This document shows positions 4,972 through 25,849 of a stretch of DNA of 26,943 bases, piece after piece. Position 1 is the stretch's first letter. Each line of letters starts with the position of its first letter. The notes beneath the pieces are model-generated. The model saw only the letters and a program-made list of their open reading frames with translations, made no database searches and had not been told where the DNA came from. The DNA comes from a virus. The stretch spans positions 1-26,943 of the IMG/VR virus record IMGVR_UViG_3300030616_000416; one strand, given 5' to 3'. Made by a program: the position numbers and the translations under genes.

Positions 4972-5034
4972 CACTAGTTGTATGCAATACCGGGGCAACC
5001 AATTTATAAGCGCGCGCGGGAAAAGACAAAGGCA

Positions 5035-5914: not shown

Positions 5915-5934
5915 GGACGTTGTAGGAAACAACC

Positions 5935-8074: not shown

Positions 8075-8122
8075 AAGACAGGGCGGTGATGAATTTGCGC
8101 GTCTCAACTTTCCGGAGGTGGC
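8075..8122 (+). other. Short spacer, possibly the tail of a lost gene
   Basis: Between the GT9 remnant and the next gene, one frame codes a short peptide reading GGDEFARLNFPEVA. It ends at TGA 8124-8126, which overlaps the GTG 8123 start in the usual GTGA manner. A tiny 26-aa frame from ATG 8046 would include it. It could be the tail of another truncated gene. CCGGAGG at the right end is the Shine-Dalgarno for the next gene. Confidence 0.35.
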
Positions 8123-10505: not shown

Positions 10506-11401
10506 TTCTCATCCATGTGAGTCGCCGGAGAACAACGGGGAAAGACAAGTTTCTGGGTCGCCTGTCTGACGAAATTGAGCGGCAGGGTCACAAGGTTGTA
10601 CGCTCTCCCAAGGAAAAGCACGACATCTATTTGGACAGAATATCGTTCAAGTGGGATACGGGGGCGCCACGGATTCTGCGGTTGAACGGGGTACACATAA
10701 ACTCAGACCGTCCGATGAAGAAGCCCAATGACGAAATACGGCATCACGCCAAGCGGGCTGATGGGATAGTGTATCAGTCGCAGTTTTGCAAACAGATGAA
10801 CGAGCGGTATGCCACGTATGGGCTGAAAATACCCAATCGTGTGATATTCAACGGCGCTCCGGTGGTGAGGCGGCGCTCAAAGCTGGCAACACTCTATGAC
10901 CGTACTTTTGTGGCATGTGCCAGATGGCGCCCACACAAGCGGCTGAATGACATTGTTGAGGCATTTGGACTAGCTAACATTCCCAATGCAGAGCTGGTTG
11001 TGTTAGGTAAGGTTACTCCTCGTTGTGTGCCGAATGTGCGTTTTATGGGGACGGTGAGCCAAGATGTGGTTGAGGCGCTGATGACCAATGCGGTGGCGTC
11101 AATACACATTGCGTATCTTGATTGGTGTCCAAACAGCGTTGTCGAGGCACAGATGTGTGGGTGTCCGGTGATAACAAACAACGTGGGGGGCACGCGGGAA
11201 ATTGCCCCAGAGCATGTGGTGGAAATCGACCCGGAATACTACGGCAAATCCGTGCGTTTGTATCACCCCCCATTGGTGGATCGACACAAGATTGCGAGTG
11301 CCATGTGGGCCTCGCTGAAGTGGGAACCCCCACAGACAGATCACATAGACATACGGAACGTGGCGAAACAGTATATTGAGTTCATGGAGACGTTGCTATG
11401 A
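10499..11401 (+). CDS. GT4 family glycosyltransferase
   Basis: A 300-aa protein starts at GTG 10499. Its N-terminal Rossmann half includes RLNGVHINSD, and SQFCKQMNERY is the usual linker helix. ARWRPHKRLNDIVEAF (141-156) matches the GT4 R-x4-K-x-hh-D-hhEAF motif that binds the donor diphosphate. LDWCPNSVVEAQMCGCPVI (207-225, Glu216) is the nucleotide-ribose signature, followed by NNVGGTREIA. All the main GT4 elements are present although the protein is short. ATG 11398 of the next gene overlaps its TGA. Confidence 0.9.
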   Translation: MVVLIHVSRRRTTGKDKFLGRLSDEIERQGHKVVRSPKEKHDIYLDRISFKWDTGAPRILRLNGVHINSDRPMKKPNDEIRHHAKRADGIVYQSQFCKQMNERYATYGLKIPNRVIFNGAPVVRRRSKLATLYDRTFVACARWRPHKRLNDIVEAFGLANIPNAELVVLGKVTPRCVPNVRFMGTVSQDVVEALMTNAVASIHIAYLDWCPNSVVEAQMCGCPVITNNVGGTREIAPEHVVEIDPEYYGKSVRLYHPPLVDRHKIASAMWASLKWEPPQTDHIDIRNVAKQYIEFMETLL

Positions 11402-12063
11402 GGTGTGCCGTTCTGGGAAGGGGAAAGAGCCTTGCGCTGTGGAACGCCATTCCGGCGAGGCCGTTGTTTGACCTGATCTATCTTGTGAATGACTGTTCCG
11501 AGGAGTCGCGGCGCATAGGGTTGACTGCGGAAGACGGAACGATAGAGCACGTATTCGGCCGTAAAAACGCAACGGTGCTAACCAGGGAGACATACGAGAG
11601 GCTGAATGTCAAAACGGCATGGGTGAATGCGCTTGGGGTGGACAATATACGGAACATGAAGCGGATGCTGCAATCCATACCCCAGCAGACAAAGGTTCAC
11701 ACTCGCCCCCCGTGTATGTACGACCGGGGGTATTTGCCGATAGGCTGGAAGAAGCTGCTTCGTGGGGTTACGTCGGCGGCGAGGCGGTCAGACAACGGCA
11801 ATGCGTGGCCCACGACCGGTCTGTATGCCATAGGGCTTATGCTGGCGAAGAATAGCCCGAGTGAGGTGTGGTTGTTCGGGTTTGATTTTTACCGCGACAA
11901 GTACCTGATTAAGGCGAATCGCCCCCACCAGAACCAGGGGGCTGCCAAGGTGCAAATGATGTATCGGTATTTGCAGAAGCTTGTGGATGAATTTGCGGAA
12001 ACGCAGTTCTATTCGGCAACGGATTTGGGTATGGAGGGTGAGAATTGGCACTTAATCCGGTGA
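11398..12063 (+). CDS. Sialyltransferase-fold protein (GT29/GT42-like)
   Basis: This 221-aa protein has the architecture of small bacterial sialyltransferases such as Campylobacter CstII. A first strand and glycine loop (AVLGRGKSL, 4-12) occupies the GNGPSL position. An Asn after the second strand (YLVNDC, Asn31) follows. WPTTGLYAIGLML (137-149) matches the S/T-G-helix, then comes WLFGFDFYRDK, the family's G-D/F-FY element. NRPHQNQ with His177 falls near the expected catalytic His. Such enzymes transfer sialic acid from CMP-sialic acid. It differs at several positions, so GT29, GT42 or a DUF115/MptE-like relative are all possible. Two more proteins of this type occur at 22725 and 25301. Confidence 0.65.
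   Translation: MRCAVLGRGKSLALWNAIPARPLFDLIYLVNDCSEESRRIGLTAEDGTIEHVFGRKNATVLTRETYERLNVKTAWVNALGVDNIRNMKRMLQSIPQQTKVHTRPPCMYDRGYLPIGWKKLLRGVTSAARRSDNGNAWPTTGLYAIGLMLAKNSPSEVWLFGFDFYRDKYLIKANRPHQNQGAAKVQMMYRYLQKLVDEFAETQFYSATDLGMEGENWHLIR
12033..12038 (+). promoter_or_regulatory. Shine-Dalgarno favouring TTG 12045
   Basis: GGAGGG lies 6 bases before TTG 12045. The competing start GTG 12060 (a GTGA overlap with the previous stop) has no comparable site, so TTG is preferred. The two choices differ by five residues. Confidence 0.5.
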
Positions 12064-12599
12064 AGCTCATTTCTGTTGCCAAAGTTGTGGACAGTCAGTA
12101 TCGCAACGGCAAGTTTAATCGCATGGACATGATTATGCGGCTGCTGTGTGCCGAAGAGGGGGGCAAATGGTGGAAGCAGTATCGGAAGATGCAGCATATT
12201 CGCATCAACAAGATACGCAAGATTCGCCCAAACAAGTGGCCGTCGGGATATGAAAAGAGGCGCGTCAAGGACTTTCTGGCGCTGCTGGAGTCGTTTGCCG
12301 AGAAGGGGTATGACATGTCGGTGAAGGGCATACGGCTTGACCGGGACTTGGAAATTGTGAACGGGTCGCACCGCCTTGCGTGCTGTATACTGAATGGAAT
12401 AAGTGAGATACCAGTACAATGGCCTCCGGAGAGTACAAAGGTGCGACGGCCATATGCGCTGAAATGGTTCAAGAAGCACGGGTTTTCAAAGCGAGTTCTT
12501 AGGGGGCTTGAGGCGCGGCGCCGAAAGCTGTTGAAGGATTTGGGACTCAAAGACAGGACAACAGATGAGTATTTTGAAAACAACATCGGGTGGGGCTAG
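12045..12599 (+). CDS. ParB/sulfiredoxin-fold protein (first of three)
   Basis: A 184-aa basic protein. It carries the ParB/Srx-fold signature: EIVNGSHRLACCILNG (103-118), equivalent to the DGxHR nucleotide-phosphate-binding motif, preceded by a strand VKGIRLDRDL and by a helix KDFLALLESFAEKGYD, as in ParB N-terminal domains. The Arg/Lys-rich C-terminus (about 129-170) is helical. Members of this fold bind CTP or ATP; some are DNA-partition CTPases, some nucleases, and some small-molecule kinases such as free-serine kinases. It sits directly before neuB and overlaps it by 35 bases. A role in sugar phosphorylation or CTP use is speculative. Confidence 0.7.
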   Translation: MALNPVKLISVAKVVDSQYRNGKFNRMDMIMRLLCAEEGGKWWKQYRKMQHIRINKIRKIRPNKWPSGYEKRRVKDFLALLESFAEKGYDMSVKGIRLDRDLEIVNGSHRLACCILNGISEIPVQWPPESTKVRRPYALKWFKKHGFSKRVLRGLEARRRKLLKDLGLKDRTTDEYFENNIGWG

Positions 12600-13437
12600 G
12601 GTTATTTGTGAGTGCTGCTGCAACCATCAGGGCGATTTGGACATTGCCAGAGAGATGGTGGTGGTTGCTGCAACGTATTGCAAGGTAGACTACGTTAAAT
12701 TCCAGAAACGATGCGTGTGGGACTTGCTGACCGATGAGCAGTATGTGCGTCCATACGATGGGCCGAATTCCTTTGGAGCAACATATGGGGAGCATCGTGA
12801 GGCGCTGGAATTTTCCATGCCGGAGCATTATACCCTACGCGACCTGTGCCACCAGCATGGTGTAGGGTATGGGTGTTCTGTGTGGGACAAGACCTCTGCG
12901 CGGCAGTTGGTGGAGATGAGGCCAGACCTGTTGAAGATACCGTCTGCGAAGAACCACGATATTGACATGATGGCATGGATACTTGAGCGATACGAGGGGC
13001 CGCTGCATGTGTCCTGTGGCATGATGACCAAGGACGAACGGGACAATTTGCGCCGCCTTACGAGTGAGTGGAAGGGGCGCATTGTGGTGTACCATTGTAC
13101 GTCGGCATATCCGGTGGAATTTGAGGACGTGTGCTTGGCTGAGATTGACCTGTTGCGGCGAGAGTGGTCACATGCGGCGGCCGTGGGGTTCTCCGGTCAC
13201 CATCGTGGCATTGCGGTGGATATTGCGGCGGTGGAGCGTGGGGCACAATGGGTTGAGCGGCATTTCACGCTGGACAGGACGTGGAAGGGCACAGACCACG
13301 CGGCGTCGCTGGAGCCTGACGGCATGAAGCGGCTGGTGCGGGACTTGCGGAATGTGCGGGTGGCAAGCGGCGTGAAGGAGAAGGACATCCTCGATTGCGA
13401 AGTCCCCAACCGGAGGAAGCTCAAGGGTGAAGACTAG
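12565..13437 (+). CDS. neuB-like: NeuB-type nonulosonate (sialic acid) synthase lacking the SAF domain
   Basis: Enzymes of this family condense phosphoenolpyruvate with an N-acyl-mannosamine-type sugar to make a 9-carbon nonulosonic acid. The TIM barrel is intact by eye: ICECCCNHQGD with Glu16 and Asn20-His21, VKFQK (44-48), LKIPSAKN (123-130), YHCTSAYP (176-183), VGFSGHH (207-213), ERHFTLDR (231-238), GTDHAASLEPD (242-252). Family members are usually about 330-350 aa with a C-terminal antifreeze-like SAF domain. This one stops at 290 aa, right after the barrel and the PNRRKL segment. It starts at ATG 12565 (weak AGGAC site) and is followed by a NeuA-like gene that overlaps its end by 11 bases. 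The exact sugar (Neu, Leg, Pse or other) cannot be decided. Confidence 0.88.
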   Translation: MSILKTTSGGARVICECCCNHQGDLDIAREMVVVAATYCKVDYVKFQKRCVWDLLTDEQYVRPYDGPNSFGATYGEHREALEFSMPEHYTLRDLCHQHGVGYGCSVWDKTSARQLVEMRPDLLKIPSAKNHDIDMMAWILERYEGPLHVSCGMMTKDERDNLRRLTSEWKGRIVVYHCTSAYPVEFEDVCLAEIDLLRREWSHAAAVGFSGHHRGIAVDIAAVERGAQWVERHFTLDRTWKGTDHAASLEPDGMKRLVRDLRNVRVASGVKEKDILDCEVPNRRKLKGED

Positions 13438-14089
13438 AGCGCTGATACCAATTCGGGCGGGGAGTAAGGGCATTCCCAACAAGAACATGAAGGAGATGTG
13501 CGGCAAGCCCCTATGCTATTGGGTTATTGATGCGGCTTTGGGGGCCAAATCTGTGGACGAGGTGTGGGTGAGTACCGACTATGACGAAGACATTGTTGGG
13601 CACATCGAGCCATGTCTTGGTGTGCGAGTTTTGTATCGTCCCGCATGGCTTGCTACCGATACCGCAACCTCGGACGATGTTCTGCGGCACTTCTGTTGGT
13701 CTGAGTGTGAGCCGGATGACGTAGTGGTGATGCTTCAGGCGACAAGCCCGCTGACTACTGGCAAGGATATAGACGGGGCTGTTGATAAGAGTACAAAGCA
13801 CGACAGTCTTCTGTCTGTTGTAAATCCGAGGTGCTGTTTCTATTGGGACGAGGATGGTTGTCCAATTAATTATAATCCAAGCACACGACCGTTTCGTGGC
13901 GAGATTAAAAAGATATGCATGGAAAACGGGGCTATATACATAACTAGCGCGGGCGCTTGTATGAGGGGCGAACCCCGTATCTGGGGTGATACAGGTATGT
14001 ATATGATGCCCCCAGAGACAGCCACAGAGATAGACACCCCCGAAGATTGGGACATCGTGGAGAAGCTGCTTGAAGCTCGCCTTTCGTAG
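13427..14089 (+). CDS. neuA-like: CMP-nonulosonate cytidylyltransferase, NeuA-like (first copy)
   Basis: This 220-aa enzyme would activate the NeuB product with CTP to give a CMP-sugar. The signature IPIRAGSKGIPNKN (7-20) binds CTP. WVSTDYDED (47-55), RPAWLATDTATSDDVL (71-86) and LQATSPLT (103-110) follow. ENGAIYIT (166-173) and TEIDTPEDWDIVE (200-212) supply the metal-site Asp region. Length and order match bacterial CMP-sialic acid synthetases without the extra C-terminal phosphatase domain. It starts at GTG 13427 with GGAGGAAG upstream. The last codons overlap the TTG start of the next gene. Confidence 0.88.
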   Translation: MKTRALIPIRAGSKGIPNKNMKEMCGKPLCYWVIDAALGAKSVDEVWVSTDYDEDIVGHIEPCLGVRVLYRPAWLATDTATSDDVLRHFCWSECEPDDVVVMLQATSPLTTGKDIDGAVDKSTKHDSLLSVVNPRCCFYWDEDGCPINYNPSTRPFRGEIKKICMENGAIYITSAGACMRGEPRIWGDTGMYMMPPETATEIDTPEDWDIVEKLLEARLS

Positions 14090-14993
14090 ATGTATGATGC
14101 AGCGGTACAGGGCTATCCTGCACCTTGTAGACCCGCTCATAGAGATGGGTCACGAGTTGAAACTGGTGGTGTCTGACCACGATGTGAATATCGAGGCTTA
14201 CCGCGCACGACCCTGCGACTTTGCGGCTTCCGCTCCGAACACCGTGGCGTATCTTGCTGGCACCATTGGTTTAACAATTAAGCATTTGGACAGGGTGAAA
14301 TATACTCTCAAGAAACACCCCATTTGTGACCAATACCTTGGGTATGACAATTCGCGGGATGACATATTTGGAATACCCTATGTGGGCGATTCCTGTTACT
14401 GGCGAGGAAAAACAATTACCACCGGCAATCCGATGCGGGATTTGATTACGGATGATTACCGTCCCAACACGGTGTTGATTCTTCATCCCGGTGGCGGCAG
14501 GGGGTACGTTTCGCCGATTCGGCAGGATTGGGCCAAAGAAATAACCACGCGGAACAACATTGAATTTCTGCGGTGTATTATTGATTGTCTGCCCGCGTCT
14601 GTGATCCAAATCACAATCAAGACCCATCCCGCCCCGTATCGGCGCTGCACAAAATCGGCACTTGAGAAGTTTGTTGCGCCAAATCTACAGCAACCAGTCA
14701 CGGTGGAGGACACTAACCTTATAGGGCTTATCAACTCCCATGAGTACATATTGAATTTTGGGGGGACATCTGCGCTGTGGGTAATGGGCAGCGGGAAGAA
14801 GTGGGCCAACGTCACGGGGCTGGTGAAGTATCCTGACTCAAACCAGCGAGAGAAGTTTTTGTCTGCGCGAGGGGGAGGCGTGCGGATAGAGAACTTGGCC
14901 GAGTGGTTTGAGAAGCCAGCCCCTGCGGCGCAGCCCAAGCCAAATGCGGTTCCCAAAATACTGAAGGCGATGCATGAATCTTTTGGCCTTTGA
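14070..14993 (+). CDS. GT-B fold glycosyltransferase-like protein
   Basis: A 307-aa protein read from TTG 14070 (GGAGAAG upstream, closely spaced); ATG 14094 is the alternative. Motifs visible are an N-terminal Rossmann start (KLAFRR... then a helix and LKLVVSDHD), TTGNPMRD (117-124), which resembles the T-GNP-x-D hinge of CDP-glycerol glycerophosphotransferase and epimerase-like GT-B folds, LILHPGGGRGY (136-146) as the first strand of the C-terminal domain, ITIKTHPAPYR, and NFGGTSALWVMG late in the chain. It lies next to the cytidylyltransferase, so a CMP- or CDP-linked donor is an attractive guess. The precise family is unclear. Confidence 0.6.
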   Translation: MKLAFRRCMMQRYRAILHLVDPLIEMGHELKLVVSDHDVNIEAYRARPCDFAASAPNTVAYLAGTIGLTIKHLDRVKYTLKKHPICDQYLGYDNSRDDIFGIPYVGDSCYWRGKTITTGNPMRDLITDDYRPNTVLILHPGGGRGYVSPIRQDWAKEITTRNNIEFLRCIIDCLPASVIQITIKTHPAPYRRCTKSALEKFVAPNLQQPVTVEDTNLIGLINSHEYILNFGGTSALWVMGSGKKWANVTGLVKYPDSNQREKFLSARGGGVRIENLAEWFEKPAPAAQPKPNAVPKILKAMHESFGL

Positions 14994-15852: not shown

Positions 15853-16700
15853 TGTTTGAAAGCCCAGAACACTATGCCGAGGTTCTTGGCGACACGTCGT
15901 TTGTCAAGTCTACTGTTCCGGGTTTTCCCGTTGTGGCGAACAGGTCTATGTTGCGGTGTATAAGAACAGAGTGGCGTTCAGATTATCCATATGTGATGGT
16001 GTTGAGATATCGCGGGGGGGAGATTGGGGGCTTCAGGGGAAAGCGCATTCTTTTTTCGGACTATCGGCCGGAGCCATCGCTGTTGGATGAGTTTCGGTGG
16101 GTTGATATTTATGTGAAAGAAAACAGCGCCACTTGCTCGGACGGGAACTTGAGAGTTGGGGCGTATCGCCCAAGCGCGGCTGTGCCGTGGTCTATTTACC
16201 GACACCCGGAACTGATAAGGCAAAAGAAAAAGCTGGATGTGTTTTTTTGTGGGCAATTGCGTGGCGGGCGAAAAAGGAAGCTTCGTGGATTTAGCGGCAA
16301 ACGTGTTAAGATTTGTGGGACGAAATATGGACGCAAGAAGTACCTTGAGATGATGGCAAAATCGAGGGTGTGTCCATCGTATACGGGGCTTGGAAAGCGG
16401 TGTCGGAGAGAGTGGGAGGCGCTGTTGTGTAACTCCCTCCTCATGGTTGACAACGATTTGCGCCAGTACCCGTTTAATGTGATGCTGCCAGACAAGCATT
16501 TTGTATGGGATGGAAATTTGGAGCGAGCGCTTGCAGGAGAATTTGAACACATTAGGCTGGCTGGACACGAGCTGGCGCGGAAGTGTTTTCTTTCGTCGCC
16601 ATCGGTGGATATTCGTGCTGCGGCCCTTTATTTGTTTTTTGATGTGCCACAAATGTGGACATATGACGAACTTGTAGCACAAGAGGAGAAGCTGCTGTGA
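15840..16700 (+). CDS. Glycosyltransferase-like protein, paralogue B of a tandem pair
   Basis: A 286-aa protein starts at ATG 15840 (GGAG 5 bases upstream) and overlaps paralogue A by 13 bases. It has the same domain order: FESPEHYAEVL at the start, GFRGKRILFSDY, WVDIYVKENSA, DVFFCGQLRGGRKRKL, MMAKSRVCPSYTGLGKRC, RREWEALLCNSLLMVDND, YPFNVMLPDKHF, HELARKCFLSSPSVDIRAAALY and FFDVPQMWTY. The best conserved part is the C-terminal donor-binding half, as expected if the two enzymes share a donor but use different acceptors. A run of seven G lies at 16014-16020. The GTG of the FkbM gene overlaps its stop. Confidence 0.6.
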   Translation: MVFLVFESPEHYAEVLGDTSFVKSTVPGFPVVANRSMLRCIRTEWRSDYPYVMVLRYRGGEIGGFRGKRILFSDYRPEPSLLDEFRWVDIYVKENSATCSDGNLRVGAYRPSAAVPWSIYRHPELIRQKKKLDVFFCGQLRGGRKRKLRGFSGKRVKICGTKYGRKKYLEMMAKSRVCPSYTGLGKRCRREWEALLCNSLLMVDNDLRQYPFNVMLPDKHFVWDGNLERALAGEFEHIRLAGHELARKCFLSSPSVDIRAAALYLFFDVPQMWTYDELVAQEEKLL

Positions 16701-17500
16701 GTGCTAGGGCATATGACATAGAGGGCTTCAGGATGGGGCTTGATGCGAACGCTCCGGGGATAGGCCGCGAGTTGATTCGTAAGGGTGGCCGGGAATTTGC
16801 GTTCATGTGGGTGCTTCGTGAGGAGGTCAAGGGGTGTACGTTGGGGTATGACATAGGTGCAAACATTGGGTATACCACCCTTCCCATAGCCACGGCGTGT
16901 GAGAAGGTGTTTGCCTTTGAGCCAGACAAGCGTTCTCGGAAGCTGCTGGAGAAGAATCTTGAGTTGAACAAGTTGGGGAATGTGTTGGTGTTCAAGGATG
17001 CGGTGACTGACCATTGCTTGGGGGTGAATATTTACCTGTCGAAGAAACCTAACCAGTCTTCCATAGCCCGGAAGGTGGGTAAGAAGAAGCACGTTTCGAG
17101 TACGACGCTGGATACCCATGCCCGATTCAACGACGATGGGGTGTTCATCAAGATGGACATTGAGGGGGCAGAGGTCGAGGCAATCCGTGGGGCCAAGAAA
17201 ATACTGTCCCACAACGAGCATGTGAAGATACTCATGGAGATTCACCCCAAAGCCTATGGTGAGAATCGGGACTTCCGCGAGACGATGGACATACTTACGT
17301 TTCACGGTTTCAGGATGAAGTATATCGTGAACGCCAAGGGAATGATGGATCTGTTTCGGGCCAAGGGGGCGCGGCTGATTAAGCAGTTTGGTGACTATCC
17401 GAGGGCTGTGTGGGCACCGTTTAATGGGGCAAAGGAGTGGTGCCTGAACTTCTATGGCGGGAAGAAGATAGTCAGGAGCGTGTTGTGGGTAAAAGGATAG
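16697..17500 (+). CDS. FkbM-family methyltransferase (first)
   Basis: This 267-aa AdoMet-dependent methyltransferase starts at GTG 16697 (GTGA overlap). The AdoMet motif YDIGANIGYTT is at 51-61, the acidic ribose-binding strand FAFEPD at 72-77, and the FkbM hallmark IKMDIEGAEVEAIRGAKKIL follows in the middle. The domain is complete. FkbM enzymes O-methylate hydroxyls, often on sugars, so capping or protecting the glycan is a reasonable inference. A second, shorter FkbM gene lies at 22165. The last 16 bases overlap the next gene. Confidence 0.9.
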   Translation: MSARAYDIEGFRMGLDANAPGIGRELIRKGGREFAFMWVLREEVKGCTLGYDIGANIGYTTLPIATACEKVFAFEPDKRSRKLLEKNLELNKLGNVLVFKDAVTDHCLGVNIYLSKKPNQSSIARKVGKKKHVSSTTLDTHARFNDDGVFIKMDIEGAEVEAIRGAKKILSHNEHVKILMEIHPKAYGENRDFRETMDILTFHGFRMKYIVNAKGMMDLFRAKGARLIKQFGDYPRAVWAPFNGAKEWCLNFYGGKKIVRSVLWVKG

Positions 17501-18300: not shown

Positions 18301-18926
18301 TTACGGCCTTCTTGATTACCAATGGGCGGTCGAGTTACCCGTATGCCATGCGGGCGCTGGAGGAACAGACCTACAAGGTGCCCATTGTCACCATTCACAA
18401 CAAGGGGTGGGTTGAGGCAAACAACCTTGCGTTGGAGACGTGTCCCACCGAGTTGATGCTGCGCGTGGACGATGACATGTTTCTGCATCCGGCTGCGGTG
18501 GAGTTCATGTTGGACACGCTGCCAGCCAAAACCACCATGCACAGGGGGAAGCTCTATGAGCCGCACACCCGCCGAGTTGCTGGAAGAATTAAGGTCTACA
18601 AAGTTCCCCGCTGTCGGGAGATTGGAGGTTTCAGGGCAAACAGACTCGGTAAAATTGACCGAATTTTTGAACGCACGGTTGGACATGATAATATCTCTAT
18701 TGCAGACAAACAATGTCCTGTTGGAATCCATAGCTGTCCGCCTTGGAGCGAACAGCGAGAGTATGAGCGGCTTTGGGGACACAGAAAGTCAACCCGAGAG
18801 CAGATGAAGCGGTTTGACATGCCGTTGCAGGAACAATTCGGAATGCGGGTTTGGAAAATTGAACGTATAGCCAGACAGCGGAATGGGAGGTTTTGGAAAT
18901 GGCTACAAGGAAAATCCGAGAGCTGA
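18297..18926 (+). CDS. GT-A fold glycosyltransferase, 3' half overlapped by a second frame
   Basis: A 209-aa protein starts at GTG 18297 with AAGGAG at 18286-18291. The N-terminus, ITAFLITNGRSSYPYAMRAL, then VTIHNKGWVEANN and the metal motif RVDDDMF (56-62), identify a GT2-like GT-A fold. GRIKVYKVP, GGFRANRLGKIDRIFERT and VGIHSCPPW follow and look structured. Codon use changes inside the gene: up to 18555 the Gly codons are GGG, while in 18556-18807 they are GGA or GGT and GTT/ATT/CGA become common. That is exactly where another protein-like frame runs. The function as a glycosyltransferase is likely; the acceptor is unknown. Confidence 0.72.
   Translation: MITAFLITNGRSSYPYAMRALEEQTYKVPIVTIHNKGWVEANNLALETCPTELMLRVDDDMFLHPAAVEFMLDTLPAKTTMHRGKLYEPHTRRVAGRIKVYKVPRCREIGGFRANRLGKIDRIFERTVGHDNISIADKQCPVGIHSCPPWSEQREYERLWGHRKSTREQMKRFDMPLQEQFGMRVWKIERIARQRNGRFWKWLQGKSES
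18556..18807 (+). CDS. Candidate overprinted small protein (83 aa) inside a glycosyltransferase gene
   Basis: A +1-frame ORF starts at ATG 18556 with GGGGGAAG (18544-18551) just upstream, and ends at TGA 18805-18807. Before this ATG the same frame translates to a Cys/Trp-rich string that looks non-coding. After it the product reads like a real protein: SRTPAELLEELRSTKFP, then VKLTEFLNARLDMIISLLQ, then NNVLLESIAVRLG and a polar tail. It is probably a mostly helical, coiled-coil-like protein. Codons used (TTG, CTG, AGG, GAG) resemble nearby genes. It is fully contained in the GT-A gene, which also looks genuine here, so this would be a nested gene. No function can be assigned. Confidence 0.45.
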   Translation: MSRTPAELLEELRSTKFPAVGRLEVSGQTDSVKLTEFLNARLDMIISLLQTNNVLLESIAVRLGANSESMSGFGDTESQPESR

Positions 18927-19228
18927 GATTCCGGCTCGACGAAGAGGGGAATTTGCAACACACCATTGTTTGTTTGACTCCCCACTATGCCCATGCGGTT
19001 GCATATTATGCCGGAATGGACTGCTGGGTGTACCGAGATTGGCAGCAATCACGGGGGAAAGACCCCGACAAGAAGGCCGAAAAGTACAATCTGTTGCTCA
19101 AGAGCTTGGCGAAAAAGGGGATGCGGCAGCCCATAGAGGTGCGGGATGATGAGATACAGCATGGACACCACCGGGCGGCGGCATGGTTGGCACTCGGCCA
19201 CAGGGAGATAGAATGTCAGGAAGTATAA
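18899..19228 (+). CDS. ParB/sulfiredoxin-fold protein (second of three)
   Basis: A 109-aa protein is read from ATG 18899 with GGGAGG at 18885-18890 (8-base spacing). It is little more than a ParB-type domain: a helix KYNLLLKSLAKKGMRQPIEV and the signature IQHGHHRAAAWLALGHREI (86-104), in which HGHHR replaces the usual DGxHR phosphate-binding loop. It overlaps the upstream GT gene by 28 bases and the downstream one by 16. Proteins of this fold bind nucleotides; whether this one is a kinase, an NTPase or only a binding protein cannot be read. Confidence 0.7.
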   Translation: MATRKIRELRFRLDEEGNLQHTIVCLTPHYAHAVAYYAGMDCWVYRDWQQSRGKDPDKKAEKYNLLLKSLAKKGMRQPIEVRDDEIQHGHHRAAAWLALGHREIECQEV

Positions 19229-20094
19229 TCATTGGGGGCACGTATTTCACGGACGAGCGTATCAATATGATACAGGGTTGGTTTGGTGCGGATGTCACTA
19301 CCGTTTCGTGGAATGATGTGGACTGTGGGCAGTACCCCCAGCTTGGGGATTGGGTGTTTGTGTTGGGGATAAAACAGTGGGTTCGGCGGCTCAAGAAGGC
19401 CAGATACACCTATCCCCAGATTGCCAAGAAGGTGGTTTCGTATATCGAGGGTTTGGGGCGCCCATACGGCCTCCTAGACGATTGTAACCTTGATGACGAG
19501 CGTGGCATAGGGGATAGACTCAGGATGGATTTGAGACCGGTTATTTGCCTCCTGAGAGAGTATCTGGAGCATGTGGAGTATCCGTCGTGGGTGCATCCAT
19601 TTTCCATCCCCTCTCCCGATCTGTCCCAGTACAAGTCTGCCGGGGTGCCGATATCCTTTTGCGGTGCTAAGAGTCACCCGTCACGGCAGCATTGGATCGG
19701 TCAAATACGGGAAGTCGCTCCCGAGGGGTCGATATTCAAGCTCTACAAGGAGGGGGGCAAGGGGAAACTGCCCCGCGAAGAATATCTGTCACTAATCGGC
19801 GAAAGCAAGGTATCTTTAAGCTTTCAGGGGAATGGGTACTGCTGCTTCCGATACCAGGAGATTCCTGCTGTGGGTAGCTGTTTGGCGTCACCAACGACAC
19901 CCCATGTCGTGCGCAATGATTACGTGAACGGAAAGCACTGTATCAAATTTGATACACCAAACGACATTTTGAAGAAGATGGATGCGGCAGAGGACATTGC
20001 TGCTGCGGGGCATGAGCATTTTCTGAAATACCACACCAGCGAAGTGCGCTACAATGAACTAGCGGGGTATATTGATGAAGTACGTAGGCATTAA
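19213..20094 (+). CDS. Exostosin/CgeB-like GT-B glycosyltransferase
   Basis: This 293-aa protein is read from ATG 19213 with AGGGAG upstream; an extension to 19183 lies in the ParB-like gene. The C-terminal domain begins with ISFCGAKSHPSRQHWI (147-162), then EEYLSLIGESKVSLSFQGNG and CCFRYQEIPAVGSCLAS, where Glu216 is in the expected place for the donor-binding Glu of exostosin and CgeB-like enzymes. DYVNGKHCIKFD, then AAAGHEHFLKYHT, close the domain. It shares this layout with the tandem pair at 14974 and 15840 but is clearly diverged. The role is presumably one step in building the glycan. Confidence 0.72.
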   Translation: MSGSIIIGGTYFTDERINMIQGWFGADVTTVSWNDVDCGQYPQLGDWVFVLGIKQWVRRLKKARYTYPQIAKKVVSYIEGLGRPYGLLDDCNLDDERGIGDRLRMDLRPVICLLREYLEHVEYPSWVHPFSIPSPDLSQYKSAGVPISFCGAKSHPSRQHWIGQIREVAPEGSIFKLYKEGGKGKLPREEYLSLIGESKVSLSFQGNGYCCFRYQEIPAVGSCLASPTTPHVVRNDYVNGKHCIKFDTPNDILKKMDAAEDIAAAGHEHFLKYHTSEVRYNELAGYIDEVRRH

Positions 20095-20497
20095 GTCGTG
20101 CAAGGAGAAGCGCAAGGCATCGAATCGTGGTGGCAAAATCGTTGTGGTGAAAACGGAAGACTTGATTGCGGGGGATTGTCAGCGGCATCTCGATTACCTT
20201 GAGGGGAACTATCGGACATACATTATATTTCACCAGAACAACGGGAAGTCAAATGACTGGATTGAGGCGCGGATGCAGAAGTTTGACGAGCTTATTGAGA
20301 GCATTCGGGAGAACGGGTTTGACTATTCTCGGGGATTTGTTCGTGTGGCCGAACCCGGTGTACGTGTGGATGGATCTCATCGCGCTTGCATATGTCATCA
20401 TCTTGGGATTGATACACTTCAATGTCTAGAGGTGAAGATGAAACTGACCCCGGCACTCAAGAAGCACTTGGAGGAGCAGCGCCGTGCGTATTGTTGA
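20075..20497 (+). CDS. ParB/sulfiredoxin-fold protein (third of three)
   Basis: A 140-aa protein is read from ATG 20075 (TTG 20072 is the alternative). It has an N-terminal basic segment, a strand KIVVVKTEDLI, a helix MQKFDELIESIRENGFD, and the ParB/Srx loop VRVDGSHRACICHHLGI (96-112) with the canonical DGSHR. The last part is a basic helix (KKHLEEQRR). GGAGGAG near its end is the Shine-Dalgarno of the following gene. As with the other two, a nucleotide-binding or kinase-like role in sugar metabolism is only an inference from the setting. Confidence 0.72.
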   Translation: MKYVGIKSCKEKRKASNRGGKIVVVKTEDLIAGDCQRHLDYLEGNYRTYIIFHQNNGKSNDWIEARMQKFDELIESIRENGFDYSRGFVRVAEPGVRVDGSHRACICHHLGIDTLQCLEVKMKLTPALKKHLEEQRRAYC

Positions 20498-21284
20498 TTT
20501 CACCAAACCCCGCCGGGAAAGTCGAATGCGGCATGTTGCCGAGCGGGAACATTTTGAGTATATACCCATATCAGACCCCCACAATGTTCCCGATGGGGAT
20601 TACTATCTTGTGCCGTCAAGCTGGTGGTACAAGGGAAAAGACAAGGGGGCTATAGAATGTGCAAACTCATTCCGTGGCCGGGTGGTAATGGTGGATTACG
20701 CCAAGGAAATGGAGCAGAAGAGGAAGAACAAGGGCGGGCTGAGGGCGGATTATATTGCGATGATGGACAATGCTTCGCCGAATTCCGTACCCGTGATTCC
20801 GTTTGCCGTGCCCTGTTTCGACCCCTCGCCTCGGTTCCGCCGCGACCCGCAGAAGGGGCGGGTGCTGGTGACGATGGAGGGCCCAACGGGGAAGGTGGTC
20901 GCCTCGTTGGTTGAGCGGCTGCGCGACAGGCACATCATATGGAAGATGCGGAGCAAGTTTCTCGACAGGCTGGAATACTATGCGGAAGTTCTGAGTGGTA
21001 CGCGGCACAAAATTGTGTACTCGGAGGACAAGGACTACAATTGGGCACAGCCGCTGGTTGAGCAATGTGCCCAGTTTGTTGAGGAACATGTAAACATAAA
21101 ACAGTTGTCTTATCCAAACCAAGAGATGATACGGTATGGTGTGCCCACCTCTATATGGGATGGGAAGCGTTTTGTTGGACACGAGAGAATAGAGAGAACC
21201 AAAAGGTTTTATGAGGGCAAACCGAGGGACTACTGTACTCGAAATTTGGTGAGGTTTTTGCGTGAGAATCTGCCTGATAATTGA
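20484..21284 (+). CDS. Unknown protein in glycan locus, possibly GT-B-like
   Basis: A 266-aa protein starts at GTG 20484 with GGAGGAG at 20470-20476. I do not recognise the family. Visible features are a first strand with RIVDFTKPRR, YYLVPSSWWYKGKDKG, a strand GRVVMVDYAKEM, a central strand RVLVTMEGPTGKVVASL followed by a basic segment, and a C-terminal region with NIKQLSYPNQEMIRYGVPTS. The two-domain alternation of strands and helices, and its position between glycosyltransferases, suggest a diverged GT-B enzyme, but no E-x7-E or G-rich signature is visible. It overlaps the next gene by 23 bases. Confidence 0.5.
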   Translation: MRIVDFTKPRRESRMRHVAEREHFEYIPISDPHNVPDGDYYLVPSSWWYKGKDKGAIECANSFRGRVVMVDYAKEMEQKRKNKGGLRADYIAMMDNASPNSVPVIPFAVPCFDPSPRFRRDPQKGRVLVTMEGPTGKVVASLVERLRDRHIIWKMRSKFLDRLEYYAEVLSGTRHKIVYSEDKDYNWAQPLVEQCAQFVEEHVNIKQLSYPNQEMIRYGVPTSIWDGKRFVGHERIERTKRFYEGKPRDYCTRNLVRFLRENLPDN

Positions 21285-22164
21285 CAAGTGGGGCTGGGCC
21301 TATGACCGCATAGCTCAGGGGCTTATCAAATTCAATAAGTCAGAACACGAGTTTGAGGTCTTTGCAGCGAAGACGGACGCGAAGAAAATCAAGCGGTCGA
21401 AGGCTGACAGATTCCTCGTGATGGGTTATCAATATTGGGACAAGGTGGACTTTCTGCCCAAGGACAGAACCTTCGTTGGGGTACACGGGCACCATCAGTG
21501 GGACGGACACAAGACCACCCCGACCGAGGACGTGCTTCCGCCGAATGATCTTCACGAGTTTCTTTCCACTTTCCGGGGGGTGAATGTTGTCTCAGAACGA
21601 TTGCACAGACTGTTTCCATACGCATCCTATACCCCAAACGGAGTCGATGTGGGGCTGTTTCGGCGCGAGCGTGTGCCGTGCCATTATTCTGGTGGTGGCA
21701 AGATGAAGATCGGTTGTGCGTATAACCCCAAACATGATTGGCGTAAGGGTGTCAAAGAGTTTGTTGAACCAGCGTTAAATATGGAGTATGGTAGTGATGG
21801 GTATGATGATGACTGGATGGACAATGACGAGTATGAGCTTTGTTTGGCTCCAAGAAATCTAGCACTGTATGAAATGCCGGCATGGTATAACACGATTGAT
21901 ATATATGTGTGTGCGTCATCCAGCGAAGGGCTTAGCCTTTCAGTCTTAGAGGCGCTGGCCTGTGGGAGAGGCATTGTTTCTACGATACCAAACGAAATAG
22001 AGGCACAAGACGTTGTGGCCAGAACCGTGCCGGACATTCGAGAGGGAATTGAGTGTTGCCTTGAGTATCCCAAACCAGAATCTGACAGAGCAATTCAAGA
22101 AGCCAAGGAGAGGTGGTCATGGGAGAAGAGATGCGGAGAATGGACAAGGTTCTTGGAGGGATGA
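21262..22164 (+). CDS. GT4-like glycosyltransferase
   Basis: A 300-aa protein starts at GTG 21262, inside the previous gene. The N-domain starts RICLIIDKWGWAYDRIAQGL, a typical GT4 opening. VNVVSERLHRLF then YTPNGVDVGLF mark the linker. After an acidic insert (about 177-192, many Asp and Tyr) come WYNTIDIYVCASSSEGLSLSVLEALACG (split; Glu222 and Glu230), which is the donor-binding signature, and GIVSTIPNEIEA. The acidic insert is unusual for GT4 and may be a loop specific to this phage. GGAGGG at its 3' end serves the following gene. Confidence 0.87.
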   Translation: MRICLIIDKWGWAYDRIAQGLIKFNKSEHEFEVFAAKTDAKKIKRSKADRFLVMGYQYWDKVDFLPKDRTFVGVHGHHQWDGHKTTPTEDVLPPNDLHEFLSTFRGVNVVSERLHRLFPYASYTPNGVDVGLFRRERVPCHYSGGGKMKIGCAYNPKHDWRKGVKEFVEPALNMEYGSDGYDDDWMDNDEYELCLAPRNLALYEMPAWYNTIDIYVCASSSEGLSLSVLEALACGRGIVSTIPNEIEAQDVVARTVPDIREGIECCLEYPKPESDRAIQEAKERWSWEKRCGEWTRFLEG

Positions 22165-22728
22165 ATGGCACTATTTAAGCATTTCTTTAAGAACCGTGAT
22201 GGTCTGTCGTTTGTACAAATTGGCGCAAATGATGGGGTGGACTTTGTTCGTGAGCGCGTGTTGACCTTCGGGTGGCGTGGGGTTTTCGTTGAGCCGATTC
22301 CACACATATTTAAACGGCTGAAAGAAACCTATCGGGGAGTTGGGGGGCTGGCGTTTGAGAATGTTGCTATTGCCGAGTCCGCCGGAACCAAGGACTTTCA
22401 TGTGTGTGATGGACACGAGGTGTGTAGTGGCCTTGAGATTGTTCATCCCAAGGTAAGTCGTCATCCGTTTCACACTATTCGGGTTAAGTGCATTACAATT
22501 TCCCAGTTGTTTGAGCGTTACGGCATAGAGCGCCTTGATGTGTTGGTAATTGACACCGAGGGGTATGATGGCAAGATAATCAAGAGCATGGATTTCAACG
22601 TAAGACCCAAGGTGCTGATATATGAAAGCAAGGATCTGCCTGATAATGATGAGGTGAGGGCGCTGCTTAAGGGGCAGGGGTACAAATTTCGTCCATTCAG
22701 TAACAACACGGTGGCATATCTAAAATGA
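22165..22728 (+). CDS. FkbM-family methyltransferase (second, short)
   Basis: A 187-aa protein starts at ATG 22165 immediately after the previous stop, with GGAGGG at 22155-22160. The AdoMet loop FVQIGANDG is at 16-24, the acidic strand GVFVEPIP at 39-46, and the hallmark LVIDTEGYDGKII follows at about 127-139. It lacks the N-terminal extension of the FkbM protein at 16697 and is among the shorter members. Probably a sugar O-methyltransferase. Its TGA overlaps ATG 22725. Confidence 0.88.
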   Translation: MALFKHFFKNRDGLSFVQIGANDGVDFVRERVLTFGWRGVFVEPIPHIFKRLKETYRGVGGLAFENVAIAESAGTKDFHVCDGHEVCSGLEIVHPKVSRHPFHTIRVKCITISQLFERYGIERLDVLVIDTEGYDGKIIKSMDFNVRPKVLIYESKDLPDNDEVRALLKGQGYKFRPFSNNTVAYLK

Positions 22729-23354
22729 AAACATTGGCAATATATGGGTGTGGGTATAGTCTGAACGAATTGTCTGATGAGCAGTGGGATGAGCTTCGTC
22801 AGTTTGATTCTATTGGTGTGAACTGGTTTGTGTTTCAGCGGTGGATCGAGCCTACTTACATGCTGGTTGGAGACATTCGGCACGACAGGAAGATAGCCAA
22901 GTTGGGACATACGCTTGAAGAAGCATTTGAGATATACGTCAAAGAGGCTTCTGCGCCGTGCTACAAGAACACAATTTTTGTGGCACGAGATTATCAAATG
23001 CCGATGCTTGGAAACCTGAGAATGTGTGAATATGTCCCAGATCGGGAGTGGAGGGCATCTAGCATAACCCAATGTCTTCATTGGGCGGTCAAAAATGGAT
23101 ATGAGCGAGCATTGGTTGCTGGAGTGGACTTGTATGACTATCGTTTTTTCTTCTTGGAACACGAACAAGTCAGGAACTATGGGTTGGTTGGGGGCGGTTG
23201 GGCAAAGAGAAAAATTCACGGTCGCCATCAGGCATATAACAAAATGAAGAAGTGGTTTAAGAGTGGGGTGTGCAAGATTCCGATTTACTGCTACAATCCC
23301 AAGTCACTCATGTTTGATTTTCCGGGGACAAAATCATGGTTGCAGCAATCCTGA
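22725..23354 (+). CDS. GT42-like (CstII-like) sialyltransferase
   Basis: This 209-aa protein shows the best match of the three to Campylobacter CstII-type sialyltransferases. IYGCGYSLNEL (6-16) stands where CstII has GNGPSLKEI. GVNWF with Asn33 matches the CMP-binding Asn. SSITQCLHWAVKNGYERALVAGVDLYD (split; Ser112-113, GVDLY 133-137) matches the SG-helix-GIDFY block. GRHQAYNKMKKW with His168 matches the catalytic His region, and IPIYCYNPKSL (185-195) matches the IKLYCLCPNSL end of the domain. It would use CMP-activated nonulosonate. It lacks the C-terminal membrane-associated tail of CstII. The two FkbM genes and a second cytidylyltransferase are near. Confidence 0.75.
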   Translation: MKTLAIYGCGYSLNELSDEQWDELRQFDSIGVNWFVFQRWIEPTYMLVGDIRHDRKIAKLGHTLEEAFEIYVKEASAPCYKNTIFVARDYQMPMLGNLRMCEYVPDREWRASSITQCLHWAVKNGYERALVAGVDLYDYRFFFLEHEQVRNYGLVGGGWAKRKIHGRHQAYNKMKKWFKSGVCKIPIYCYNPKSLMFDFPGTKSWLQQS

Positions 23355-24007
23355 TTGGTCGCAAGGGGTCGAAGGGGTTTCCCGGCAAGAACACCCATGT
23401 GGTCTGCGGTAGGCCAATGTGTGAGTGGCCTCTGCTTGCGGCTCAGAAGATGGTGGACAAGATATACTACTCCACCGACGATGAAGATGTACACGAGATT
23501 GCAAAAGCCTATGGGGAGAGGTTGCATCGCCCCCCGGAACTGGCAACTGATGAGGCTCTGGGCGAGGATGTATACCAGCATTGTGCGGCGCGAGTGGTTG
23601 AGCCAATACTGGTGTTGTTGATGGCCAACGCCCCGACAGTTGCAGATTTCCACATTGCTGACGGGTTGCGGGCACTTCAGGATGGATATGCCTCAGCTTG
23701 TACGGTGTCGAAGTACAACATGTTTCACCCAACAAGAGCAAGGGTGCGCGGGGAAAGCCTGTGGCATTACCATCATGGCGGCGCGAGTTGTGATCGTAAT
23801 TCTGCCGGTGATGCTTGGTTCTATGATTGTGGGTGTGCTGTGGTGAGAAGGGAGAACATGAGTATGCTTCACAGTGGGCTTCCCCCACAGCGGTGGCTCC
23901 ATGTGCCGTGCTATGGCATTGAGAACGAGGCGGGGATAGACGTGGATTACGAATGGCAACTTGGGCAGGTTGAGTGGTGGCTGAGGAGGTATGCAAAATG
24001 CGCGTAG
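23336..24007 (+). CDS. NeuA-like cytidylyltransferase (second, divergent copy)
   Basis: This 223-aa protein has the same scaffold as the NeuA-like protein at 13427 with different residues. AILIGRKGSKGFPGKN (4-19) is the CTP-binding signature. YYSTDDEDVHEI, RPPELATDEALGEDVYQH, LLMANAPTV in place of LQATSPL, and GIDVDYEWQLGQVEWWL (200-216), which provides the two metal-binding Asp, follow. It starts at ATG 23336 with GGGGA upstream and overlaps the GT42-like gene by 19 bases. The pairing with a sialyltransferase-like gene suggests a CMP-sugar different from the first. The substrate could be a nonulosonate or Kdo-like acid. Confidence 0.82.
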   Translation: MVAAILIGRKGSKGFPGKNTHVVCGRPMCEWPLLAAQKMVDKIYYSTDDEDVHEIAKAYGERLHRPPELATDEALGEDVYQHCAARVVEPILVLLMANAPTVADFHIADGLRALQDGYASACTVSKYNMFHPTRARVRGESLWHYHHGGASCDRNSAGDAWFYDCGCAVVRRENMSMLHSGLPPQRWLHVPCYGIENEAGIDVDYEWQLGQVEWWLRRYAKCA

Positions 24008-25335
24008 TTCTCATTTCTCCACAATACCGAATACTGCATTCTCCAGTAAGTGATTTGTCCAAGAATGTTCATAGGAGGGCGCAGCCCAATTTGGCGCTTG
24101 CCATACTTGCCACTACCCTGAATCGTGCGGGGTATGAGGTTTTGTATTTGGACAGCGTAATTGAGGGCATTGATCAAACCATTCGCTTCGATGAGGAAAC
24201 AGACTATTATGGACTGATGCCAGACGGTATCCGGCGCCGGGTGGAAGAATTCAGTCCAGACTTGATTGCCATTACTTGTCTGACAACCAGCCAATACCCC
24301 CTTGTACGGGCTGTGTATTTTGAATTGCTTTCGCTTGGTATTCCCATTATCATTGGGGGAAACCATGCCAGCCTCAATGCTCGTGATGTCAGGGAGCTTG
24401 GGTTTCATTCCGTTGTGTGCGGGGAGGCGGATCAGAAGATTCTGGAGGTTGTTGACCGACTGAACAGTTTGCCCGACATTGTTCACCTTGGGCGGTTAGA
24501 CGATTTGGACAAAAGCCCCCAGATAGATTGGTCACTTTTGCCAATGGAAAAGTATTGGACAAAAGCTCTTCCCCAAAATCCATTTCCCAAGAGTCGAAAG
24601 ACCATCCTCTATGAGACATCGCGGGGCTGCCCGGAACATTGTGTTTTCTGTTCTACGGCGAACCACTTCGGCCACAAGTTTCGTCCGAAATCGGCACGGC
24701 GCGTGGTGCAAGATATTACGGAGGCGGTTCGCACTACGGGGATTGAGGAGGTGCAGTTTTGTGATGACAGCATGGGGGTAAATCGCACTCGGTTCATGGA
24801 CATATGCGAGGGGCTAAAGCCTCTTGGCATACATCTGTGCAACCCTTCTGGAATCAGGTTCTACATAAAGAAAGAGTCTGAGCTGCGAGAAACATTTGCC
24901 ACGATGCGGGATGCGGGGTTTTACCAGATGACATTTGCTGTTGAAAGCGGCAACGAATATATCCTCAATACGGTAATCAAGAAGCGCCTTGATCTTGAAT
25001 GGACACGGAAAGCGATAGGCGTTGCAAAAGACTACTTCAAAGTACACGCATTTTTCATCATTGGATTGCCGGGGGAAACCGAAGAGCAAATCAACGATAC
25101 CTTGCGCTACGCGAAAGATATCAAGGTGGACAGCTATTCGCTGTCGCTGGCGCAACCGTTTCCATCCACAGAGCTGTGGAGGATTTGCCGTCGCGGGGGG
25201 TGGATGGTTCCGGGCACCAAAGAGTCAGACATGTTGTTGGGAAAACAGGTGATTCGCAGGGACGATGGTTTGGACTTGGTATCTATCGCGGAGGACGCTC
25301 TTGAACGACTGGCTGGTAATAGCAACAGGCCCTAG
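23998..25335 (+). CDS. B12-binding radical SAM enzyme
   Basis: This 445-aa protein is read from ATG 23998 with GAGGAGG at 23983-23989; an earlier in-frame GTG at 23974 lies before the Shine-Dalgarno. Residues about 1-150 form a cobalamin-binding-type domain (RAQPNLALAILATTLNRAGY, then PDLIAITCLTTSQYP, IIIGGNHASL, VVCGEADQ). The radical SAM core has RGCPEHCVFC with Cys211, Cys215 and Cys218 (CxxxCxxC) for the 4Fe-4S cluster, followed by QFCDDSMG, FAVESGNEYIL and FFIIGLPGETEEQI. This architecture is shared by class B radical SAM methylases and ring-forming enzymes. Acting on a sugar or sugar-linked intermediate would fit the locus but is not shown. Confidence 0.92.
   Translation: MRVVLISPQYRILHSPVSDLSKNVHRRAQPNLALAILATTLNRAGYEVLYLDSVIEGIDQTIRFDEETDYYGLMPDGIRRRVEEFSPDLIAITCLTTSQYPLVRAVYFELLSLGIPIIIGGNHASLNARDVRELGFHSVVCGEADQKILEVVDRLNSLPDIVHLGRLDDLDKSPQIDWSLLPMEKYWTKALPQNPFPKSRKTILYETSRGCPEHCVFCSTANHFGHKFRPKSARRVVQDITEAVRTTGIEEVQFCDDSMGVNRTRFMDICEGLKPLGIHLCNPSGIRFYIKKESELRETFATMRDAGFYQMTFAVESGNEYILNTVIKKRLDLEWTRKAIGVAKDYFKVHAFFIIGLPGETEEQINDTLRYAKDIKVDSYSLSLAQPFPSTELWRICRRGGWMVPGTKESDMLLGKQVIRRDDGLDLVSIAEDALERLAGNSNRP
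25290..25294 (+). promoter_or_regulatory. Shine-Dalgarno deciding TTG 25301
   Basis: GGAGG lies 6 bases before TTG 25301. The protein from this TTG begins MNDWLVIATGPS, with the family's first strand at the very start, so the 12-residue longer frame from 25265 is unlikely. Confidence 0.6.
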
Positions 25336-25849
25336 TGTTGGGGCTTATGCTGACGTAATTCGTGCTTTTGCAGATGGGAAAACCACCATAGGTGTACACC
25401 ACTTGGCGGGACGTTTTGTTCCCGACTATCACCTGTTTGTTTCAAAGAAGCGATACAAAAAGTACGGTAAGTATGTGAATCCCAAAAGCACCCTGGTTTT
25501 GACCAGCAAGATGGGTGGCCATTTTGATGTGGAGAACGAGTATCCATCTTCTGTGGGGTCGATTGAATTTTTTGACGGCCGCGTAGTAAGCAGGGGGGCG
25601 TCCGGTGGGGTGCTGGCTGCTGCATATGCAATCATGTTGGGGGCGCAGCGGGTGTTTATCGCCGGAATGGACGGATATAGTGATGGGGCAGGTCACCATT
25701 ACAAGGAGAAAGACAATTCTTGGAGTCGGCTCATGGAACACGAGGCTGCGACGCCAATGATTCTCAGGGATTTGAATAAGATTGTGCTGGTGACAATTAT
25801 TACGCCGACAGTATACCAAGAATACTACGTGGGATTTGAACACAATTAA
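25301..25849 (+). CDS. Sialyltransferase/DUF115-fold protein (third), short
   Basis: A 182-aa protein read from TTG 25301. LVIATGPSV (5-13) keeps the GPS loop that binds the nucleotide in GT42 and DUF115/MptE-like proteins. GVHHL replaces the Asn seen in the other two. RGASGGVLAAAYAIMLGAQRVFIAGMDGYSDG (split; SGG 101-103, AGMDGY 121-126) matches the SG-helix-GIDFY block, and GHH at 131-133 gives candidate catalytic His residues. It is the shortest of the three and ends soon after. The AGMDGY form is closer to DUF115-type proteins near nonulosonate and O-antigen genes than to CstII. It could be a transferase or a non-catalytic partner. Confidence 0.6.
   Translation: MNDWLVIATGPSVGAYADVIRAFADGKTTIGVHHLAGRFVPDYHLFVSKKRYKKYGKYVNPKSTLVLTSKMGGHFDVENEYPSSVGSIEFFDGRVVSRGASGGVLAAAYAIMLGAQRVFIAGMDGYSDGAGHHYKEKDNSWSRLMEHEAATPMILRDLNKIVLVTIITPTVYQEYYVGFEHN

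Follow-up and report, generated by a model that had tools for sequence, protein, structure and literature searches.

A phage-borne island of soluble sugar enzymes encoding a putative nonulosonic acid pathway with Maf/GT42-fold transferase-like proteins

Gene content of the island

The viral contig IMGVR_UViG_3300030616_000416 of IMG/VR, analysed here over its full 26,943 bp (hereinafter the window), carries beside a phage terminase most of a 23-kb block of approximately 30 soluble sugar enzymes, which forms part of a complete 76-kb phage of bacteria. At its core are a NeuB-family synthase, two NeuA-like cytidylyltransferases and three proteins that we assign to the Maf/DUF115-GT42 superfamily; these and the other window genes are named below by their start positions (Table 1). 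A preliminary description made from the letters alone had read a sialic-type acid pathway from this block. Profile searches bear out its synthase (12565), both cytidylyltransferases (13427 and 23336), two FkbM methyltransferases, a B12-binding radical SAM enzyme and the many glycosyltransferases, comprising GT2, GT4, GT9-like and rhamnosyltransferase-like enzymes. The co-directional arrangement next to a genuine terminase large subunit (TerL) gene is equally real, with the stretch from 3476 to 26670 being 99% coding on one strand and its genes mostly overlapping. The limits first given for the block, 11398-25849, were too narrow, as it extends beyond both ends; in genome coordinates it spans about 3476-28272.

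Table 1. Features of the island and its surroundings. Coordinates are those of the window unless marked as genome; G003, G004 and L176 are other phages described in the text.
Coordinates	Strand	Feature	Evidence
264..2588	+	Terminase large subunit (phage context)	phrog_5989, 1.3e-8; ~30% identity to TerL of many phages
2612..2938	+	GNAT acetyltransferase at island edge	PF13508, 1.5e-6
3476..11401	+	Island left part: LicD-like, GT-A like, N6/N4 DNA methylase, two further glycosyltransferases, GT9-like, RlaP nucleotidyltransferase, GT4, GT2, GT4	Profiles
11398..12063	+	GT42/Maf-fold putative nonulosonic acid transferase 1	AlphaFold2 model
12045..12599	+	ParB/sulfiredoxin-like small protein	Motif by eye
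12565..13437	+	SAF-less NeuB-family nonulosonic acid (9-phosphate) synthase	PF03102, 4.8e-62
13427..14089	+	CMP-nonulosonic acid synthetase 1 (NeuA1)	PF02348 (CTP_transf_3), 7.2e-22
14070..14993	+	Uncharacterised protein directly 3′ of NeuA1, GT-B-like motifs by eye	No family match
16697..17500	+	FkbM methyltransferase 1	PF05050, 1.6e-17
17437..22164	+	GT4, GT2-like, ParB-like, glycosyltransferase, ParB-like, unknown, GT4	Largely colinear with phage G003
22165..22728	+	FkbM methyltransferase 2	PF05050, 1.4e-18
22725..23354	+	Maf/DUF115-GT42-fold putative nonulosonic acid transferase 2	AlphaFold2 model; relatives PF01973, 2e-10
23336..24007	+	Second CMP-sugar synthetase (NeuA2)	PF02348, 1.8e-11
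23974..25335	+	B12-binding radical SAM enzyme, probable methyltransferase	PF02310 and PF04055; 571-bit ortholog in L176
25265..25849	+	Maf/DUF115-like protein 3	Profile and alignment link to 22725; phrog_4603 sialyltransferase, 0.043 only
25864..26670	+	2-hydroxyacid dehydrogenase-like	PF02826, 2e-18; in G004 the homolog adjoins the 25265 homolog
26667..26943	+	Start of glycosyltransferase-like gene, running on to genome 27605	Homologs in G003, G004
genome 27583-28272		LicD-like gene after the glycosyltransferase-like gene	

The phage genome

The island belongs to a complete phage genome because a second IMG/VR contig (76,297 bp, from another sample) forms a closed circle with the window. The contig contains window bases 1-26,389 with a single mismatch, its start extends the window end, and its 127-bp end repeat together with the window reading across the junction yields a genome of 76,170 bp. 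The right part of the island has a bacterial look in its gene content, and the preliminary description had itself named a phage end joined to a bacterial O-antigen locus during assembly as a result that would overturn it. We give such a chimera practically no credence and rule it out, given that the second contig closes the circle with one base differing, that other phages hold the same modules, and that GC content and coding direction are even throughout. The closed genome encodes the terminase, a portal protein outside the window (phrog_156, 6e-29) and a capsid protein, the last recognized by position and homology to a relative (G005, see below) only, making it a tailed phage. It is remote from the public phage collection, in which the portal protein has one match at 21% identity and the capsid protein none. 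A 6,580-bp contig is a close variant, 99.7% identical in the TerL region and showing upstream patches of 92-99% identity with gaps, which suggests a co-occurring strain.

A SAF-less NeuB and the predicted type of pathway

NeuB matches PF03102 over profile positions 2-241 of 241 (210 bits) and keeps all the active-site motifs (ICE, VKFQ, LKIPS, AYP, SGH, ERH and GTD), as read from alignments to SpsE, sialic acid synthases, and phage and bacterial rows. We take the barrel residues Glu, Lys, Lys, Tyr, His, Glu/His and Asp to have the roles that they have in NmeNeuB. At 290 residues the protein stops at the linker and thus lacks the C-terminal SAF (antifreeze-like) domain; 61 of its 80 bacterial and 71 of its 79 viral nearest relatives are equally short, a ratio biased upward by the use of short proteins to build the search profile. 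It scores below the NCBIfam equivalog cut-offs (181 of 400 bits for the N-acetylneuraminate synthase model TIGR03569, 117 of 340 for the pseudaminic acid synthase model TIGR03586), and the NeuA proteins likewise miss those for defined sugars (PseF, at 90 and 55 of 206 bits, and KdsB). Therefore, "sialic acid" is to be read here as nonulosonic acid, and the "sialylated" glycan of the preliminary description was too specific a term in a reading that is supported in part.

A comparison of 80 bacterial and 81 viral NeuB loci speaks to the type of pathway. NeuC is found near the SAF-less NeuB in two loci of either set, while in 68 of the 80 bacterial loci the short NeuB adjoins either a phosphatase-bearing NeuA or a separate KdsC-type phosphatase. 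The phosphatase domain of one bacterial partner scored 168 bits against the Kdn-9-phosphate phosphatase model (cut-off 180). The viral loci, on the other hand, carry an EcbF-like small HAD protein in 29 of 81 cases as compared to one of 80 bacterial ones (Fisher p 2e-9, uncorrected for relatedness). The Epimerase_2 domain (PF02350, NeuC) is absent both from the complete genome and from nine relatives. Since the NeuB is SAF-less and its bacterial kin stand beside a 9-phosphatase-type domain but almost never beside NeuC, the genes most likely specify a sugar-9-phosphate (Kdn-like) pathway that would need no NeuC, in which case the absent epimerase is probably not a gap. The Kdn route from a hexose-6-phosphate has been shown in a haptophyte (PMC6200933). 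The earlier observation that NeuC is missing is hence correct, but the borrowed precursor deduced from it would more plausibly be a common hexose-6-phosphate, such as mannose-6-phosphate.

In the NeuB tree the clade that includes the window protein comprises 28 bacterial and 11 viral rows, and the nearest relatives of the protein are spread over many bacterial phyla; at a minimum, seven bacterial-viral switches are implied by the tree. Relatives of this NeuB type are encoded on at least 534 viral stretches. Among 50,697 phage records three matched; one of these, a Moritella viscosa "phage", is a bacterial capsule contig and was excluded from the count.

Both NeuA proteins display the N-terminal GSKGxPxKN motif. 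The best solved relatives of NeuA1 are CMP-sialic acid synthetases (1e-28 to 2e-25; PpNeuA in the PDB, 1.2e-28), and it is missing the phosphatase domain that its bacterial kin have; the best solved relative of NeuA2 is a CMP-Neu5Ac synthetase (8e-11). NeuA2 has fixed neighbors, namely 22725 and the radical SAM enzyme, which suggests that it may serve a separate branch.

Maf/DUF115-GT42-fold proteins

The preliminary description had recognized three sialyltransferase-fold proteins. The assignment holds for 11398 and 22725 by predicted structure and for 25265 by profile; none of the three has a Pfam or NCBIfam match of its own, PF01973 (DUF115) and the CST-I family of GT42 (PF06002) included. 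The third had been placed at 25301, an internal start of the open reading frame that begins at 25265. Relatives on viral contigs join 22725 and 25265 (the latter by profile only) in one family, in which 12 of 23 aligned members match PF01973, the DUF115/MptE-like domain that forms the transferase domain of Maf, and one distant relative weakly matches PF06002 (E 0.0093). The AlphaFold2 model of 22725 (pLDDT 81.5, pTM 0.83) finds as its best structural match the Maf glycosyltransferase 5mu5 (Z 12.6 over 179 residues), with CstII at Z 11.1 and 20% identity. The best VIA matches of the 11398 model are GT42 enzymes (9c08 at Z 12.8, CstI and CstII at about 12), followed by Maf 5mu5 (Z 11.5). For comparison, unrelated folds score 4-5 and the related pterin/thiamine pyrophosphokinase fold 6-9. 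Within its family, the ten rows closest to 22725 keep a histidine just before the C-terminal helix (His168) in nine cases and the tyrosine of the DxY motif (Tyr137) in eight. By sequence context we presume these to correspond to the catalytic His188 and to Tyr156 of CstII.

Relatives of 11398, 22725, 25265, 14070 and the radical SAM enzyme come from metagenomic viral contigs only, none of the five having a match in the public phage collection; a viral scan with the 11398 family returned the twin genome only. DUF115-type proteins occur at 33 of 81 viral versus four of 80 bacterial NeuB loci (Fisher p 2.5e-8, likewise uncorrected), and the 11398 family at six viral and no bacterial loci.

It might be argued that NeuB and NeuA do make a nonulosonic acid but that the DUF115-fold proteins are not its transferases and might act on other nucleotides as MptE or thiamine pyrophosphokinase does, the transfer falling to another gene such as 14070, which lies directly 3′ of NeuA1 and is a possible second-type transferase judging from its motifs. 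After all, PF01973 takes in the pterin diphosphokinase MptE, and the models also match the pyrophosphokinase HPPK (8sd5, Z 9.4) and thiamine pyrophosphokinases (Z 7-9). We consider this unlikely, as the scores to Maf and CstII are higher (11-13) and span more residues, and as DUF115-fold genes are linked to NeuB and NeuA in many phages.

Recurrence in other phages

Modules of the island recur, partly in colinear order, in phages of 25–164 kb and 30–46% GC. G003, a 164-kb phage (GC 40%) with UvsX-like, DnaB and tail genes, has at least ten island homologs in an order largely as in the window, as well as a separate operon (32.0-35.6 kb) of the form DUF115-DUF115-NeuA-NeuB-KdsC-like phosphatase, which by gene content would place all four expected pathway steps within one phage. 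G005, 68 kb long and with an end repeat of 87 bp, has portal and capsid proteins in common with the 76,170-bp phage and, together with L113 and L117, shows the order TerL-GNAT-NeuB-HAD-GT-NeuA-GT2-rhamnosyltransferase-like-GT4-22725 family (GT, glycosyltransferase), so that in these phages too a GNAT gene lies between TerL and the island. G004/L176 (GC 30%) retains 22725-NeuA2-radical SAM in window order (212 bits), the radical SAM ortholog scoring 571 bits. G009, a T4-type phage, codes for NeuB, NeuA and both transferase families. Since G003, G004 and G005 were fetched through 22725 homology alone, they offer a reciprocal test of linkage: NeuB is present in two of the three and a CTP_transf_3 enzyme in all.

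Two further loci were observed. In a 484-kb jumbo phage (LR756508.1, 9292-14460), a SAF-less NeuB has as its neighbors GDP-sugar enzymes, a small HAD protein and four GT29-like sialyltransferases, of which the one tested matches PF00777 (1.6e-26). A single-cell Kyanoviridae virus (MH319754.1, 6424-14421) combines NeuB with a DegT-type aminotransferase, an SpsF-like cytidylyltransferase and a gene resembling 11398, a set that may specify an amino-nonulosonic acid pathway.

Candidate acceptor and proposed mechanism

The virion, the phage DNA and the host surface had all been left open as targets, and of these a virion protein is now favored. The block contains no convincing membrane protein and no membrane glycosyltransferase with a clear helix. 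In a hydropathy scan of the window genes the threshold was reached, marginally, by the radical SAM protein alone, and neither the 76-kb phage nor three relatives encode a flippase. As there is no flippase and membrane segments are essentially lacking, assembly of the glycan probably takes place in the cytoplasm, with direct attachment to a virion protein, by analogy with Maf enzymes, which O-glycosylate Ser/Thr of flagellin with nonulosonic acids and whose PF01973 domain resembles CstII (PMC11339370). Accounting for the genes as a phage-encoded, wholly cytoplasmic nonulosonylation pathway is our best overall explanation, to which we assign about an even chance.

In such a pathway NeuB would condense phosphoenolpyruvate with a host six-carbon sugar or sugar-phosphate, the likeliest substrate being mannose-6-phosphate or ManNAc-6-phosphate. 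The 9-phosphate would be removed by a host phosphatase in the 76-kb phage and by their own in related phages and bacteria, and NeuA1, or in a second branch NeuA2, would then make the CMP-sugar. The single-domain Maf/GT42-fold enzymes 11398 and 22725, and perhaps 25265, may transfer it either straight onto Ser/Thr residues of virion proteins or onto a short glycan, which it would cap. That glycan would be assembled by the neighboring soluble glycosyltransferases, and the FkbM and B12-radical SAM enzymes could trim it with methyl groups. As for the acceptor, directly behind a GT2-methyltransferase fusion gene in the structural region, outside the island, lies the gene for an 830-residue fibre-like protein (genome 54833-57325; L008:8571-11060) with 47 serines in 94 residues, mainly as (GSAS)n, and our guess is that this is a candidate. 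On a wider and more tentative view, which we hold possible but doubtful, phages commonly carry exchangeable soluble nonulosonylation islands whose single-domain Maf-like enzymes modify virion Ser/Thr directly with a phage-made nonulosonic acid, in this instance on the (GSAS)n protein, which would make them the viral equivalent of flagellin glycosylation.

Several observations weigh against this reading. NeuB and both NeuA proteins lie well under the equivalog cut-offs, which thereby do not identify the sugar. The KdsC-like and EcbF-like HAD phosphatase profiles match nothing in the 76-kb genome (one each was found in G003 and G005), so a host phosphatase would be needed. The model of 11398 is of modest confidence (pLDDT 72.9), and no counterpart of the catalytic histidine of GT42 is apparent in the 11398 family. 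In 22725 a phenylalanine stands where CstII has its second tyrosine. Finally, the (GSAS)n repeat is present in the 76-kb genome only and in no relative examined.

Two other targets have to be weighed. The island resembles an O-antigen or capsule locus in gene content, and serotype conversion by temperate phages is known (PMC12619734; PMC6586298). It could thus remodel an O-antigen, capsule or S-layer glycan of the host, against superinfection or for a change of serotype, by using the carrier, flippase and polymerase of the host for the missing steps. A lipid-linked surface polysaccharide would require export by the host. We find this rather unlikely since the block has neither flippase nor clear-helix membrane glycosyltransferase and adjoins the packaging genes, as it also does in G005, L113 and L117. 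Alternatively, the sugars might decorate phage DNA as hypermodified bases to escape restriction: DNA is a frequent substrate of phage glycosyltransferases, and a DNA methylase and a nucleotidyltransferase reside within the island. However, DNA modification is disfavored because the usual enzyme, a base hydroxymethylase of the thymidylate synthase family, is absent from the 76-kb genome, and relatives of GT42 and Maf act on glycans or proteins. To our knowledge, the known DNA glycosylation systems are moreover all far smaller than this gene set. We thus judge DNA as the target to be very improbable.

If virion nonulosonylation is correct, the sugars could shield virions from defence or binding, serve as receptor decoys, or act in attachment. 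The viral stretches with NeuB relatives suggest that the trait may be widespread, and soluble single-domain Maf-like enzymes would be handy tools for placing sialic acids on proteins.

Other genes of the island and genome

In the left part, genes 4126, 6611, 8878, 9741 and 10499 have homologs in related phage islands; the RlaP nucleotidyltransferase there (8123-8881; phrog_388, 2e-46) is of the RNA-repair type. Three small ParB-like proteins (12045, 18893 and 20072) are scattered among the glycosyltransferases, the 20072-type gene occupying the same place in G003. Searches of Pfam, PHROG and NCBIfam returned no match for 12045, which is possibly a glycan kinase, and no convincing homologs were found for 12045, 14070 and 14974. 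Outside the island, two minus-strand paralogous genes (genome 28269-28778 and 65934-66566) have in common a stretch of ~470 bp that is 83% identical; one of the copies contains short tandem repeats. The protein at genome 43350-43895 begins by eye like a sulfotransferase P-loop (GAPRSGTSW) and has no Pfam match.

Comparison with known systems

Phage glycosyltransferases, virion glycosylation and scattered viral NeuB genes are already known or visible in databases, as are lipopolysaccharide-type genes in cyanophages, with virion glycosylation being known for a few phages in culture. In the open literature searched, there appears to be no description of a self-contained pathway for a nonulosonic acid that includes Maf/GT42-type transferases and is shared by unrelated phages. 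The Maf systems (Magnetospirillum 5mu5 and Clostridium botulinum CbMaf) compare in the fold of their transferase, in the nearby genes for supply of a CMP-nonulosonic acid, in being soluble and in the protein acceptor proposed here. They differ in that the phage proteins are single domains of 190-260 residues without the N- and C-terminal domains of Maf, are encoded in a phage island and have no flagellin. The GT42 enzymes (CstI, CstII and Pasteurella multocida 9c08) share the fold with 11398 and 22725 (Z 11-13), as well as a DxY motif and, presumably, the histidine before the C-terminal helix of the 22725 family. Pairwise identity is however only 12-20%, and apart from the missing CST-I match, 22725 departs from CstII in its second tyrosine.

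With the Kdn-9-phosphate pathway of Bacteroides thetaiotaomicron and Prymnesium parvum the island has in common a NeuB without NeuC, and among the nearest bacterial NeuB kin a Kdn-9-phosphatase/KdsC-like domain that adjoins NeuA or is fused to it. The 76-kb phage keeps only the predicted synthase and cytidylyltransferase, without the phosphatase. The jumbo phage LR756508 likewise joins a SAF-less NeuB to sialyltransferase-type genes and the Kyanoviridae virus MH319754 to an 11398-like gene, but these are unrelated phages in which a 13427-type NeuA was not found, and the former uses GT29 instead of GT42/Maf. Finally, the known phage glycan genes, as in virion glycosylation of mycobacteriophages and serotype conversion, are similarly glycosyltransferases carried by phages and acting on glycans of the virion or the host, whereas here they form part of a large soluble set with its own predicted synthesis and activation of a nine-carbon sugar.

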